Source: a virus
IMG/VR virus record: IMGVR_UViG_3300030202_003282
Span: 52,754-116,753 of that record
Strand: one strand, 5' to 3'
Length of the DNA stretch: 64,000 bases
In this document: positions 9,164-48,323 of the stretch, piece by piece
Layout: each line of letters opens with the position of its first letter
Position numbering within the stretch: position 1 is the stretch's first letter
Notes under the pieces: model-generated
What the model saw: only the letters and a program-made list of their open reading frames with translations
Told to the model about the DNA's origin: nothing
The model's database searches: none
Position numbers and translations under genes: made by a program

Positions 9164-11023
9164 CTATTGAATTTCACAAGCTCCACCAGCACAAGCCAGT
9201 TCACCTGTTAGATTTGTTTCATCTTTTTCTTCAATTACTTTAGAAAGATCTATTTCTTGTAAATGTATTAACATTTTTTCATATTCTTTTTTAGTAATAT
9301 CTTGAAAAGGTGCTTGTTTGTATGTACCTCCATTATAAGGTAGTACAGATAATCCATTATAATATTTACGATTATCCCACATCCATTCACCTGCAGCTTC
9401 CCACTCATGTTCTTTTAAGCTAATTGTTGCAGAAACATTGTGTGTATTAGATCCAGTTCTATGACCTGGTTTAATCCACTCTTGTGCTATACGCTTAACT
9501 CTATCTAACAATTGAAATGGAGATTCAGTTCTCATTATAGCTCCAGAAGGAGCTTTTTGAGGAATACTGATTACAGCTGTAGTATGAGGACTAAAATACT
9601 CATCTTCAACTAGTTCAGGGATATTCTTAGAGAGATACTCATAAATAGCTTCATTTTTACCTACACGTAAAGTACGTATATAATAATCATTATGCCAAGC
9701 ATGAATACCAGAAGAAGTACCTAAAGTAAGAGATGTAGTTCCAGCAGGTTTTACAGTTGTTGTTCTAGCTGACTTGTTAATATCAATTAACTTTGCAATT
9801 CTAGAGTTTTCTCTCTTTACAAGATCTGCAGCTTTAGTCATGTCATAACCTAATACAGCTCCGGATCCAATTCCTGTCATTGATACACCAATAAGTGCAT
9901 CTTTTTCAGTTGTTTCTCTCCAGATATCTCTTAAATAATGAAAGTCAGTGTAACCAGCTTGCAATGTTCCAATAAAAGCTGCAGCTTTAACTCTTTCATT
10001 AAGATCTTCTTGAGATGTAATATTAGATACATTAACTTCACAAAGATTACAGAATTGATATGGACGCAATGCAATTTCACAACAAGGATTAGTTCCCCAA
10101 TCTTTATCATTATTAAAGTAAATACCAGGTTCACCAGCACCACTCTTTTCTACACGCTCCCAAAGTTTCATAAAAAATTCTTTAGTAATTTTATGTCTCA
10201 TCAGGACAGCAGAATTATTAGCACGGCCACGTTGTGGATTTAATTCCCACCAATCACCAGATTTAGATGCAATCATATCATTATCATCAGCAGAAAATAA
10301 ACTAATAAGTGCAGCTCTACGTATACCACCTGCTAATACAGCATCAGCAATATGACAAACAATATCATGAACTTCTAATGTTGTTAATTGATCACCATCC
10401 TCTTTACTTTCTAAAATACCTGTTAATTTAACAATGCATTCTTTAAGTGGTTGAGGTCCAGGTGCTTTACCACCAGATGTTACAAGTCTTGCACCTTTAG
10501 CACGAATATCTGAATAATCAAATTCAATACGAGATCCTTTACCATTAAGATAAGACTTCATAAGTACTTTAATAGAATCAGCCCAACCTTCAATTGAATC
10601 ACCAATTAAAAATCTTCTGCTTCTTTTTACATAAGGTTTATTTATAGGAGGTAATTTAGCTACATGATGTTTTTGTACAGAATAACCTACACCAGTTCCT
10701 CCCAATAATAAGAACATAATCTCACTAAATGAGTCAATATGATCTAATGGTAAATATGCACAGTTATAAATTCTATTAGGAGATATTTCAATTGGTTTAC
10801 CACCAAATTGCATACTTCTCATAGAAGGAAGAACTTTTTTATCATATACCATTTTATAAACTTCTTTAATTTCAGAAGAAAGTTTAGGATACTTTTTAAT
10901 ATGCATGTTTTTATTTCTAGTAACTAATTCATGCCAGGTTTCCCTGCGGTTTAGTTCTGGAACAAATCTTGCATATTTCATATAGACAGTGATTTCACTT
11001 AGAATTTGATTGCTTAATTCCAT
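9164..11023 (-). CDS. nrdJ: Adenosylcobalamin-dependent (class II) ribonucleotide reductase, monomeric type
   Basis: Reduces ribonucleotides to deoxyribonucleotides for phage DNA synthesis, using vitamin B12 coenzyme instead of oxygen. The catalytic layout matches the Lactobacillus leichmannii-type monomeric enzyme: Cys88 in NCAY; Asn312, Cys314 and Glu316 in the NPCCE active-site loop; Cys325 eleven residues after the radical Cys314; and a C-terminal Cys611/Cys616 pair five residues apart that re-reduces the active site. A GGTGVGYS loop lies near 108-115. At 619 residues it is shorter than the ~740-residue Lactobacillus enzyme. It is isolated on the - strand between + strand genes, with its own AT-rich upstream region, so it may be transcribed alone. 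Confidence 0.93.
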   Translation of the reverse strand: MELSNQILSEITVYMKYARFVPELNRRETWHELVTRNKNMHIKKYPKLSSEIKEVYKMVYDKKVLPSMRSMQFGGKPIEISPNRIYNCAYLPLDHIDSFSEIMFLLLGGTGVGYSVQKHHVAKLPPINKPYVKRSRRFLIGDSIEGWADSIKVLMKSYLNGKGSRIEFDYSDIRAKGARLVTSGGKAPGPQPLKECIVKLTGILESKEDGDQLTTLEVHDIVCHIADAVLAGGIRRAALISLFSADDNDMIASKSGDWWELNPQRGRANNSAVLMRHKITKEFFMKLWERVEKSGAGEPGIYFNNDKDWGTNPCCEIALRPYQFCNLCEVNVSNITSQEDLNERVKAAAFIGTLQAGYTDFHYLRDIWRETTEKDALIGVSMTGIGSGAVLGYDMTKAADLVKRENSRIAKLIDINKSARTTTVKPAGTTSLTLGTSSGIHAWHNDYYIRTLRVGKNEAIYEYLSKNIPELVEDEYFSPHTTAVISIPQKAPSGAIMRTESPFQLLDRVKRIAQEWIKPGHRTGSNTHNVSATISLKEHEWEAAGEWMWDNRKYYNGLSVLPYNGGTYKQAPFQDITKKEYEKMLIHLQEIDLSKVIEEKDETNLTGELACAGGACEIQ

Positions 11024-43862: not shown

Positions 43863-44594
43863 TCACTCAAAAAACCTATCATCTAATTCAAGATTTAAAT
43901 TCTTAAATTGATTGTGGTAAATTTCATGTTGATCAGGTGCATACCGATACATGTTTATAGAATCTTCTACTTTTCCAGCATTAATTCTATTTTCTAACAG
44001 TTTTTTACTTAATTCTTCAATAGATAATTTTTCAAGATTATGTTTAAATACTTTATATCTATGATTTAAACGATTTAACATTTCAATACTAGCAAAATGG
44101 TTATGCAAATGTAAACCAGATTTTATTTCTTTGTATTCTATATTAATTTGTAAATCATTTAATGCTGCATGTTTTATTTCAAAATTCATTGATGTATGAA
44201 TATCATTTTTATCATCAGCATGTTTATATTTAAATCTTATTCCAGGAATATTACCTATACCTATAATTTCTTCATGCATATGTTCACTTAAAGATTCAAG
44301 TTTATTTTGAAGTTTATTGGTTAACTTAATTTGTTTAACATAACAACTGTATGTTTTATTTTTATTAATCCAATATTTTTGGCTTGTATATCCACCAAAA
44401 TATGTATTAGAAAAATCTAATATTTGATCATCATCATGGTTAAGCATACTAATTCTTCCTTGATGACCTTTAAATAGTTTATTACGATCAAATTTATATA
44501 TAGCAATACTATCCATAAAATTTGATTGTCTTGGTTGATTAGATTGTTTTTGTGATTTAAAGAGTTTATTAAAGTAATATTTTAAGTTTTTCAT
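43863..44594 (-). CDS. Hypothetical protein
   Basis: A 243-residue Lys/Asn-rich protein of unknown family, with several His and Tyr residues in the central part. It stands alone between two terminators with a TTTAAAACC leader just before its ATG, so it forms a one-gene unit. Confidence 0.6.
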   Translation of the reverse strand: MKNLKYYFNKLFKSQKQSNQPRQSNFMDSIAIYKFDRNKLFKGHQGRISMLNHDDDQILDFSNTYFGGYTSQKYWINKNKTYSCYVKQIKLTNKLQNKLESLSEHMHEEIIGIGNIPGIRFKYKHADDKNDIHTSMNFEIKHAALNDLQINIEYKEIKSGLHLHNHFASIEMLNRLNHRYKVFKHNLEKLSIEELSKKLLENRINAGKVEDSINMYRYAPDQHEIYHNQFKNLNLELDDRFFE

Positions 44595-45540: not shown

Positions 45541-45612
45541 TGGCAGTAATAGGATTTGAACCTATCTGTACCAGATCCATCATAAGAGCTATCATTCTTA
45601 TGTGGTACTGCC
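45541..45612 (-). ncRNA. tRNA-like element with atypical middle
   Basis: On the - strand, a 7-bp acceptor stem (45606-45612 with 45542-45548), a canonical T arm (ATAGG-TTCAAAT-CCTAT, 45549-45565) and a discriminator A are clear. The 40 bases between do not form ordinary D and anticodon arms; instead they fold into a perfect 7-bp hairpin (45581-45587 with 45596-45602). It lies at the 3' side of the large structured RNA candidate. It may be a degenerate tRNA, a tRNA-like processing signal, or a decoy; no anticodon can be assigned with confidence. Confidence 0.6.
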
Positions 45613-46482
45613 ATATAAATAAAAGGCTGAGAATGTGACCTTTTTGTTCTAAGTTTATACTTGCCATTTCTGACTCAATTCACACGATGCATTACTGCAT
45701 GTACTTAGAATACACACGGATTAAGATGTCCGCCATCACTGCTATTGTAGATATAACTTCACTTTCAAACTAACTTCCCTGGAAGGATTAGGAGAGAACC
45801 ACCTCTCTTAGATAAATTTTACTAGATTCATTTACATTAGGCCTTGCGAGCTTTATCTGCACCTGTATATTACAACAGGATAAGTGTATTGTTGGGGTGT
45901 TTCCCACATACAATAGCCTTTACGTTAATTATGCTTTTAGTTATTGAACATTTTGGCGTTCTTTAAAAGGATTCAGGTTATTAGTAGAAGACACGTAAAG
46001 TTTATATAATCATGCCAGCTTTTGACCGGTTTAGACTATAACTTCTACTTACTTTCATGGGCCTCCCCATTAATCATTGTTTTAAATCTATTGTCACAGT
46101 ATTTCTACTAGCAACTAGATAAAATTCTAATAACAGCTTTTGATCCGGTGAGATCATACTACCATTACCTATCATAACGCTTATTGATGTTTCCATCTCA
46201 ACAACCAGCCTGTCTGATTGTCTATGCTACTGTATCACCTCAAGAGGATTTGATACACCATAACATAGATGTTACGATACCTTTCCGTGAAATGCATTGC
46301 TGCATCAGAGAGTTTATTCCATATTCAACTCTCTTTTATCCCATTGCTGGTTTATCCTTATGGCCACGAAGGCTGACCAATACTTTTTAATAACAATTTC
46401 TAGGCACAAATAATGCTATACTAAATGTCATAACGACTTATATCTTACTTGGCTATAGGCTCTTTTATTTAACTGCCTAGAA
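45613..46482 (-). ncRNA. Large structured noncoding RNA candidate (about 870 nt)
   Basis: No convincing gene occurs here, base composition is less AT-rich than neighbouring genes, and many perfect hairpins can be drawn: 45687-45691/45696-45700 and 46292-46296/46301-46305 (each ATGCA/TGCAT, with loops GTAA and GCAA on the - strand, both GNRA tetraloops), 45862-45866/45875-45879, 45887-45892/45910-45915 with inner 45893-45896/45903-45906, 46057-46061/46066-46070, 46231-46237/46251-46257 with inner pairs, 46307-46314/46327-46334, and long-range 45983-45990/46042-46049 and 46398-46406/46474-46482. GNRA loops favour the - strand. Size and tRNA proximity recall GOLLD and ROOL RNAs of phages; no family is assigned. 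Confidence 0.7.
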
Positions 46483-46488
46483 TTATTA

Positions 46489-46683
46489 TTATATTCCTTG
46501 TTCAAAATCATTAAGTTCATTGAACATATGATCCATTGCTGCTTCTTCAAAGCAAGTTTCTATATTACCCATCTTGGGTTTTGTTTCTATATCATCTTTG
46601 CATAGTTGTGTTAATGCTCTTTCAGGTGTGACATAACCTTCACTTACATCTTTCAGTAAGTTGTATGTTTGTTTTACAGTCAT
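46489..46683 (-). CDS. Small acidic hypothetical protein
   Basis: The start at 46683 (MTVKQTYNLL) was preferred to an upstream ATG that overlaps the next gene. The protein is 64 residues, acidic, helical, and ends 7 bases before the long-range stem of the large RNA candidate. No family recognised; it and the gene upstream are the only coding genes between the two structured regions. Confidence 0.5.
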   Translation of the reverse strand: MTVKQTYNLLKDVSEGYVTPERALTQLCKDDIETKPKMGNIETCFEEAAMDHMFNELNDFEQGI

Positions 46684-46693
46684 ATAATTGTTT

Positions 46694-46972
46694 TTAAATA
46701 TTAGTAAGTACGTATCTTTTACGCTTAGACACGCAATCAAATATGCATAGTATTTTTTTTACTATAACATTAGTTGCTGTTTTATTAGGTTCTGTGATTA
46801 ATAATATGATGTCTTCATTATTACTTTCATCTACATATCCAATCTTATGTTTATCTAACATATCTTTTACGATATCATAAACTGTTTCTGCATAGTTATA
46901 AGCAACGAAGTGATCATTATTTCCTCTTGTCATTAAACTGTGAGGATAAATTTTTAATTCAAATGTTTCCAT
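46694..46972 (-). CDS. Small hypothetical protein
   Basis: The start at 46972 (METFELKIY) follows an A-rich leader; 92 residues, mixed alpha/beta, with a basic C-terminus CVSKRKRYVLTNI. No family recognised. The structured element at 47011-47101 would lie in its 5' leader. Confidence 0.5.
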   Translation of the reverse strand: METFELKIYPHSLMTRGNNDHFVAYNYAETVYDIVKDMLDKHKIGYVDESNNEDIILLITEPNKTATNVIVKKILCIFDCVSKRKRYVLTNI

Positions 46973-47010
46973 TGTTTTAGTTTTTGGTTGAGTTAATAAA
47001 ATAATAAATC

Positions 47011-47470
47011 TAGCCAGGTTGTATAGGTTCTGCACTACAATTTAAGTGACTCACTGCTGAACTCATAACGTGTCGGTCCCACCACTATAGCAACCTGACT
47101 AATTAATAATGACAAGGCAAAATACGTTAAAATCCTTGTCTGTGCAATTTTATCCATTACCCTCAACATATCTCTATGTATCCTGGTCTGCAATTTGTGA
47201 GTCCGTTTATTAAACCAGTTATTATCTCACATTTGCTTATTAAACACTCTTAGGTGATAATAAGAAGCCGGCTCTGTAATATTTTGCAGGTCACATGGAG
47301 CTCAAGAATTAAGAGGAGCTACCTCAACTTGAATACAATCAGAATCCTGTCTTTATAATTTCTGGTGGACCCCATGTGATTAATATCTTAAGCAGTTTTG
47401 ATTCATGCTTAGGAACCCACTCAACCACAAGATTCCGGATACCAATATGCTTATCCTGTATATAGAGAAC
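47011..47470. ncRNA. Second structured noncoding region (about 460 nt)
   Basis: No plausible gene. A strong closing helix pairs 47015-47021 with 47091-47097, 47022-47026 with 47085-47089, and 47011-47013 with 47099-47101. Further perfect stems: 47111-47117/47134-47140, 47219-47226/47256-47263, 47291-47298/47372-47379 enclosing nested hairpins, and 47387-47394/47406-47413 (one wobble). The strand is not certain; flanking genes are leftward. It may be a separate RNA, a second domain of the 45.6-46.5 kb RNA, or a leader of the small genes. Positions 47471-47615 show nothing recognisable. Confidence 0.6.
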
Positions 47471-47615
47471 ATACATAGGAAGAACAAAAGGTATTAAGTC
47501 TGTTTGTTTTAATTATAGTATCAGTGATAGCTATATTAATTATTACTGTGGTTGTAGTAAATATGGTGGTGATTAGTGGAAGAATGTGGTGTATGTGACC
47601 TCACTCTTAAAGATA

Positions 47616-47643
47616 CACGCACAAATAAATAAAAATGTGCGTG
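47616..47643 (-). terminator. Stem-loop after small gene
   Basis: A perfect 8-bp stem CACGCACA (47616-47623) with TGTGCGTG (47636-47643). Read leftward it follows the gene ending at 47669, but the T-run after it is weak, so terminator function is uncertain. Confidence 0.45.
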
Positions 47644-47668
47644 CAATTAAAGAAGTTGGTGGTAAATA

Positions 47669-47866
47669 CTATGGTTTACCCTGACGTAACACTATTTTGT
47701 TAAGTCTTCTTGTCTCTTTAGTGTTGAGAAGTCTTTGAGACACTAGGTTTTGACCTATATAGTAGTTATAGTCAGTGTCCATGTCTTGTGCTATTTCTTT
47801 TACATATGCACTAATATCTCTTAATGCTATGTATTGTGCTGATCTGTATGTTTTCTTTTGTGCCAT
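47669..47866 (-). CDS. Small hypothetical protein
   Basis: The start at 47866 (MAQKKTYRSA) is preceded by a leader with TTATTAACCACT and TAAAACC, as for other early genes. Encodes 65 residues, basic, helical. An alternative start at 47962 would overlap the next gene. No family recognised. Confidence 0.5.
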   Translation of the reverse strand: MAQKKTYRSAQYIALRDISAYVKEIAQDMDTDYNYYIGQNLVSQRLLNTKETRRLNKIVLRQGKP

Positions 47867-47951
47867 TGTTGTGGTTTTAGAGTGGTTAATAAGAAGTGCA
47901 CTGCCACAATTAAGTAGCAATGCACAGTAAGAATCAGAAACCCATTGAAGC

Positions 47952-48323
47952 TTATGCTTCAACAGGTAGGGCTGGATATAATCCAGTCTCCTTGAGAGTC
48001 TCTCTATCTAAGATAGGGTTAGACTTGTCAAGGTAGAATCCTTGCACAGGCGTGCCTTGTGCTAAAGGTTTCTTTTGCATTTTGGCAAACTCCGTGCTTC
48101 TGCTAAGGATTTTCTTGCCGTTAATCTTTAGATTAAGGGTGCCATATACAAGCTCACGCTTGTTGTCCGTTTCAAAAGATATTCCTTGAAACTTTGTTTC
48201 TTGGACTTTTGCAGGACTTTCTGTAAGCATAATGGTTACAGGTACACCATCCGGATAGTTCTTTCTATCAGCATGGTTCTTCTTATCATAAGCATAAGAA
48301 TAAAAATAGAGTGTTTCAGTCAT
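47952..48323 (-). CDS. Hypothetical protein at the early/late boundary
   Basis: Encodes 123 residues, beta-rich and Lys-rich, no family recognised. The first gene of the leftward side of the early/late divergent gap; its DNA is less AT-rich than most of the window. A hairpin TTGAAGC/GCTTCAA covers its last codons. Confidence 0.55.
   Translation of the reverse strand: MTETLYFYSYAYDKKNHADRKNYPDGVPVTIMLTESPAKVQETKFQGISFETDNKRELVYGTLNLKINGKKILSRSTEFAKMQKKPLAQGTPVQGFYLDKSNPILDRETLKETGLYPALPVEA

Follow-up and report, generated by a model that had tools for sequence, protein, structure and literature searches.

A large RNA of a crAss-like phage as a probable divergent branch of the GOLLD family

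What is encoded by the gene-free stretch of about 870 nt at positions 45613-46482 of the window, the 64-kb segment analysed here from an IMG/VR contig of 116.7 kb? An earlier note, made from the letters alone, took it for a large structured RNA, either GOLLD-like, ROOL-like or of a new class, transcribed leftward and ending near a tRNA-like element. Among open reading frames of at least 60 aa, this interval contains a single one, which starts with TTG, is 68 aa long and lies on the opposite (+) strand; apart from this frame the stretch is gene-free as claimed, and a protein-coding region was rejected. It is also less AT-rich than its surroundings, as the note had it, with a G+C content of 0.345-0.36 compared to 0.24-0.30 in the DNA to the left. 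We delimited the RNA to 45615..46488 on the minus strand. Both ends are approximate: the 5′ end was placed just past the stop codon that ends ORF 46489-46740 upstream, and the 3′ end past the last hairpin. For the neighbouring protein at 43863-44594, no relatives were found.

The large terminase and the portal protein of the window match phage head-and-packaging profiles. The terminase shares ~24-25% identity with its counterparts in crAssphage and relatives of that phage, and terminases closer to it than that of crAssphage occur in many other IMG/VR contigs. Judged from these proteins, the contig is that of a crAss-like phage, an environmental relative of the gut crAssphage. The window also carries a ribonucleotide reductase at 9164-11023 (-) (PHROG 367, E=2e-130). 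Some terminase frames from other records contain internal stops, three TAG in G078 (the record of L150) and one TAA each in G055, G069 and G073; stop-codon recoding or split genes are possible explanations.

The hairpins and helices listed in the earlier note, including 45983-45990/46042-46049 and both ATGCA/TGCAT hairpins with their GTAA and GCAA loops, are all present in the sequence. The predicted folding energy of the minus strand lies below that of shuffled sequences (z -2.2, 0 of 20 shuffles as good). Since the plus strand (z -1.8) nearly equals it, fold energy alone is little proof. That the observed structure is real is settled by comparative sequence data, not by folding.

Two close relatives carry the RNA at ~96% identity, compared to ~75% for the flanking coding DNA and only 57-62% for some neighbour proteins. 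This contrast could result from strong constraint or, alternatively, from recent exchange. By blastn against terminase relatives we obtained four divergent homologues at 63-66% identity, the alignment of which revealed a near-invariant motif in the 5′ half, GATAAACCAGYAATGGKATAAA (46337..46358, minus strand); an exact scan of IMG/VR with this motif returned 37 contigs. One further blastn match (G010, E=2e-4) falls within a portal gene and was dismissed as due to chance. No match was observed when the window RNA and that of L127 were compared by blastn to 50,697 phage records.

An alignment of 18 sequences was then used for covariation analysis. Across 181 consensus pairs, 93% of the cells are paired and 92% of the pairs are formed in the window copy. 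The covariation that the earlier note had proposed to look for in homologues is extensive: 100 of the 181 pairs change on both sides while remaining paired, against 6-8 in column shuffles, and the signal runs along the length of the RNA. With a null retaining the tree and the substitutions per branch (a custom script following the approach of R-scape), 34 pairs were significant, compared to 0-2 with slid partners. In addition, the minus strand has 514 G-U pairs for 58 A-C mismatches, whereas the ratio is 151:138 on the other strand, which identifies the minus strand as the RNA strand. The leftward orientation given in the earlier note thus stands.

These data bear directly on the idea that the locus acts not as RNA but as a conserved DNA region (an origin or a packaging site), or as a recently exchanged segment with chance hairpins. 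Recent exchange could indeed give high identity among three genomes, and the fold energy is only modestly unusual. However, strand-specific covariation and significance under the tree-aware null require selection on RNA pairing, and the GOLLD model matches described below point the same way. The DNA-level reading is thus already contradicted by the covariation; we rejected it as a candidate and consider it extremely improbable.

Several of the supported elements lie beyond a nested prediction: the 8-bp helix of the earlier note, the 3′-terminal hairpin and two loop pairings, PK1 and PK2, all strongly supported. The 8-bp helix, which opens the 3′ domain, spans 45985..46051 on the minus strand, one register wider than 45983-45990/46042-46049; it is kept in homologues with many different sequences: the 18 homologues show 13 versions, almost all of them paired. 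A second 8-bp helix (45995-46002 with 45920-45927, minus strand), with 14 versions among the 18 homologues, crosses the former as a pseudoknot and closes over the linker. The 3′-terminal hairpin (45624..45645, minus strand), which is followed by a U-rich stretch, appears in homologues as AAAGG/CCUUU, AAGAG/CUCUU, AACAG/CUGUU and AGUAAG/CUUAC. Pseudoknot PK1 joins the loop 46371-46374 to 46282-46285 (46282..46374, minus strand) and is found as CCUU/AAGG, CUCU/AGAG, CCAU/AUGG and CCCU/AGGG. PK2, a loop pairing of 46148-46152 with 46062-46066 (46062..46152, minus strand), occurs as UGUCG/UGACA, UGCCA/UGGCA and CACCA/UGGUG; it is weak in the window copy itself and is compatible with intra- or intermolecular pairing. 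Of the hairpins seen in the single sequence, GATGCA/TGCATT (46293-46308) is part of a helix in which 7 of 7 pairs change on both sides. The 9-bp helix 46398-46406/46474-46482 is identical in the two close relatives, and the 5′ end of the RNA is unalignable in the divergent homologues. At the level of sequence comparison, a conserved covarying structure with pseudoknots on the minus strand is thereby demonstrated.

To which family does this RNA belong? With default settings, Rfam gave no match at cut-off in the 64-kb window, GOLLD included, and a scan of 3.4 kb with E up to 5 missed GOLLD too, returning a weak tRNA and two chance-level families. When positions 45605-46100 were scanned alone by cmscan (these 496 bases run with laxer filters than longer scans), the full GOLLD model (RF02032, 1-416) aligned to minus-strand positions 45624-46049 (50.7 bits, E=2e-12). 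This model spans the 3′ domain only, and the match defines that domain in the window. The score is one third of the curated cut-off of 150 bits, so that annotation at the Rfam cut-off skips the window RNA. The gathering cut-off was reached neither in the window nor in any relative of its branch; this limit is set by curation and does not describe a structural property, and the family is backed by the E-value, by both domains and by covariation. Independently, the divergent homologues match as well: L112 scores 47 bits, G015, G048, G036 and G021 score 56, 64, 65 and 71 bits, and 14 of the 31 motif-bearing contigs searched score 46-101 bits, while the model gave no match in 14 control genomes. 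The covariance-model check proposed in the earlier note therefore singled out GOLLD, the first of its alternatives, and the sequence data demonstrate that the 3′ domain is a member. ROOL, in turn, was rejected, no covariance-model match to it being returned with E limits of 5 or 10; the window RNA resembles ROOL in being a large phage RNA of a kind often near tRNAs and known to form a cage (PMC12286853), but it is GOLLD and not ROOL that it matches.

The 5′ domain (46050..46488, minus strand) lies beyond the Rfam model and is supported by its covarying helices. Its core (46277..46383, minus strand) was modelled separately: R1, a covariance model of this core built from the crAss-type RNAs alone, matches the window with 87.5 bits, and 22 of 29 pairs show changes on both sides. 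In a separate alignment the covariation score of the core was 0.644, compared to 0.207 in shuffles (0 of 500 reaching it) and 0.08-0.15 with slid partners. R1 was compared to six GOLLDs from phage records that score above the Rfam cut-off (160-287 bits), retrieved with the Rfam consensus as query. It matches L157 (E=1.3e-4), L161 (E=7.5e-4) and, weakly, L156 (Acinetobacter phage Herod, E=0.055); the matches end 240-340 nt before the 3′ domain, the distance in the window being 228 nt. In the three other GOLLDs nothing was reported, a silence that fits the published lower conservation of the GOLLD 5′ region (PMC12286853). As R1 finds the matching place in three GOLLDs above cut-off, both domains look homologous to GOLLD, and for the 5′ core this kinship with the GOLLD 5′ part is demonstrated as far as sequence models reach.

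A new class, the last alternative of the earlier note, was dropped on this ground, both domains having counterparts in GOLLDs above the Rfam cut-off. A related proposal is that of a separate class of large phage RNA with another function, which would have acquired a GOLLD 3′ domain by domain swapping and whose 5′ domain would be unrelated. It could draw on the confinement of the Rfam match to the 3′ domain, on the lack of any exact match of GATAAACCAGYAATGGKATAAA in 84,980 bacterial and archaeal genomes, and on the failure of R1 to find anything in three of six GOLLDs. Against it, L157, L161 and, weakly, Herod are matched by R1 in their 5′ part and at the expected distance, and lower conservation is published for the GOLLD 5′ region in any case (PMC12286853); we regard domain swapping as improbable. 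The reading that we favour, with a probability of roughly 0.85, is that the whole RNA is a GOLLD of a divergent branch encoded on the minus strand of a crAss-like phage, the 5′ domain being its weakest link and the cage assembly proposed below being part of the same reading.

How is this branch distributed? A terminase of crAss-like type was present in 15 of 21 checked motif-bearing records. Conversely, of 26 terminase-related records, 7 were matched by the 5′ model, and several in which it found no match exceed 80 kb. GOLLD is patchy among crAss-like phages, so that related phages with and without the RNA can be compared. In the literature searched we found no report of GOLLD in crAss-like phages or Bacteroidetes, nor of ornate RNAs in crAss-like phages, which is weak evidence given the incomplete coverage of that search. 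Being a GOLLD, the RNA is ordinary in kind; what is new is a branch missed by the standard threshold, in a phage group for which this literature held no GOLLD report.

A tRNA-like element of 72 nt (45541..45612, minus strand) starts 11 nt past the end of the GOLLD match, in agreement with the end near such an element given in the earlier note. It scores 18.1 bits, the cut-off of the tRNA model being 29, and combines an acceptor stem of 7 bp with a T arm but lacks a clear anticodon arm; a single odd hairpin replaces the ordinary D and anticodon arms. Near-identical elements occur in ten contigs (the window, L129, L134, L147 and L162-L167), lying elsewhere in some and adjoining GOLLD in others: directly downstream in L147, ~250 nt downstream in L134, and upstream in L129. 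ARAGORN did not call the window copy; it called tRNA-His(ATG) in L134 and L147, the copies of which encode the CCA end, and an undetermined tRNA in L129. In the stretches fetched from six contigs carrying a copy, the 5′ core was not matched. The window's two closest relatives lack the element, which is thus dispensable for GOLLD. Other tRNA-like elements, seemingly unrelated, were seen in the same phage group, at L110:567-651 (+) and near the RNA in L119, L124 and L129, all with acceptor and T arms and unusual middles.

Among GOLLDs above cut-off, a tRNA lies 9-10 nt past the match in Herod (L156), Javan636 (L159) and LR756502 (L161). Herod offers the closest parallel in layout: its GOLLD (225 bits) reads 5′ core, 3′ domain, then a tRNA 9 nt past the match. 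It differs in lying within a long tRNA array and in the weakness of its R1 match. The linker of the window RNA (45928..45984, minus strand) contains no tRNA on reading of the sequence. In L150, a tRNA-Asn (anticodon att) lies within the GOLLD linker at 10519-10594 (-); a tRNA inside the linker has been described for some GOLLDs (PMC12286853). The L128 linker holds a piece like a tRNA 3′ half (AGGGTTCGACTCCCTTATCACTGCCCA), for which no 5′ half is apparent.

In vitro, GOLLD env-38 assembles as a hollow 14-mer, in which the 5′ domains make the caps, the 3′ domains make the rings and the linkers point inward; GOLLD expression goes up during phage lysis (PMC12286853). The window RNA shares with env-38 the organization in two domains joined by a linker, a similar length (~870 nt compared to 833 nt for env-38; PMC12286853), the full-length match of the 3′ domain, a 5′ core common to several GOLLDs, a phage origin and a tRNA or tRNA-like neighbour. 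It differs by its score far below the cut-off, by its occurrence in crAss-like phages, by an adjoining element that is no ordinary tRNA and by the aligned loop considered below. By analogy, the RNA would be transcribed leftward, presumably during infection, its 5′ and 3′ domains would fold on either side of the short linker, and the copies would self-assemble into a hollow RNA cage as env-38 does. Such assembly is, in our estimate, the most likely outcome. Phage tRNAs or ribosomal particles are among the conceivable contents of a GOLLD cage. Termination at the last hairpin and its U-rich tail could produce the 3′ end, as could tRNA-type processing at the adjacent element; this second route appears doubtful.

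One contact of the env-38 cage, B8, is the self-pairing GC/CG dinucleotide of loop L21a (PMC12286853). The loop that aligns to L21a reads GUGGUU in the window and GGACA in L112, by a mapping to env-38 numbering that is indirect. As the dinucleotide is not seen in the aligned loop, assembly may differ from that of env-38, and the indirect mapping makes this a testable difference, not proof. The loop also bears on a different proposal, that the GOLLD fold is kept in this branch with no closed cage, the RNA working as single molecules or in smaller oligomers that might, for example, bind ribosomes or tRNA. Besides the apparently missing dinucleotide, it is in line with the binding of GOLLD to ribosomes in pull-downs, as PMC12286853 mentions, citing other work; on the other hand, most of the helices and loop pairings persist and covary, and other contacts could substitute for L21a. 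We consider the loss of the cage unlikely, though not far-fetched. More speculative is an assembly with subunit contacts unlike those of env-38 (a changed half-shell joint and a linker without tRNA), processed or loaded via the dedicated tRNA-like element devoid of a normal anticodon arm, to which we would give little weight.

The interest of the window RNA lies in the fact that GOLLD is among the very few natural RNAs known to build cages without protein. The branch extends GOLLD to crAss-like phages and adds dozens of divergent full-length sequences skipped at the Rfam cut-off, a set large enough to ask on which helices and subunit contacts selection acts.

Two further elements of these genomes were noted. 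Upstream of the RNA, a second gene-free stretch (47036-47600) is 93-98% identical in relatives over 47383-47560, the remainder being absent there; its fold energy is not unusual (z -0.8), and no Rfam match was obtained in 46480-47980. Part of it belongs, together with a 113-aa GTG-start ORF, to an insertion relative to G001 and G002 (46684-47383). Finally, a Hatchet ribozyme with 82 bits, above the Rfam cut-off, was detected in contig IMGVR_UViG_3300027996_000082 (L175:464-597, +); it lies on the same strand as the GOLLD core of G021, ~0.85 kb upstream of that core.
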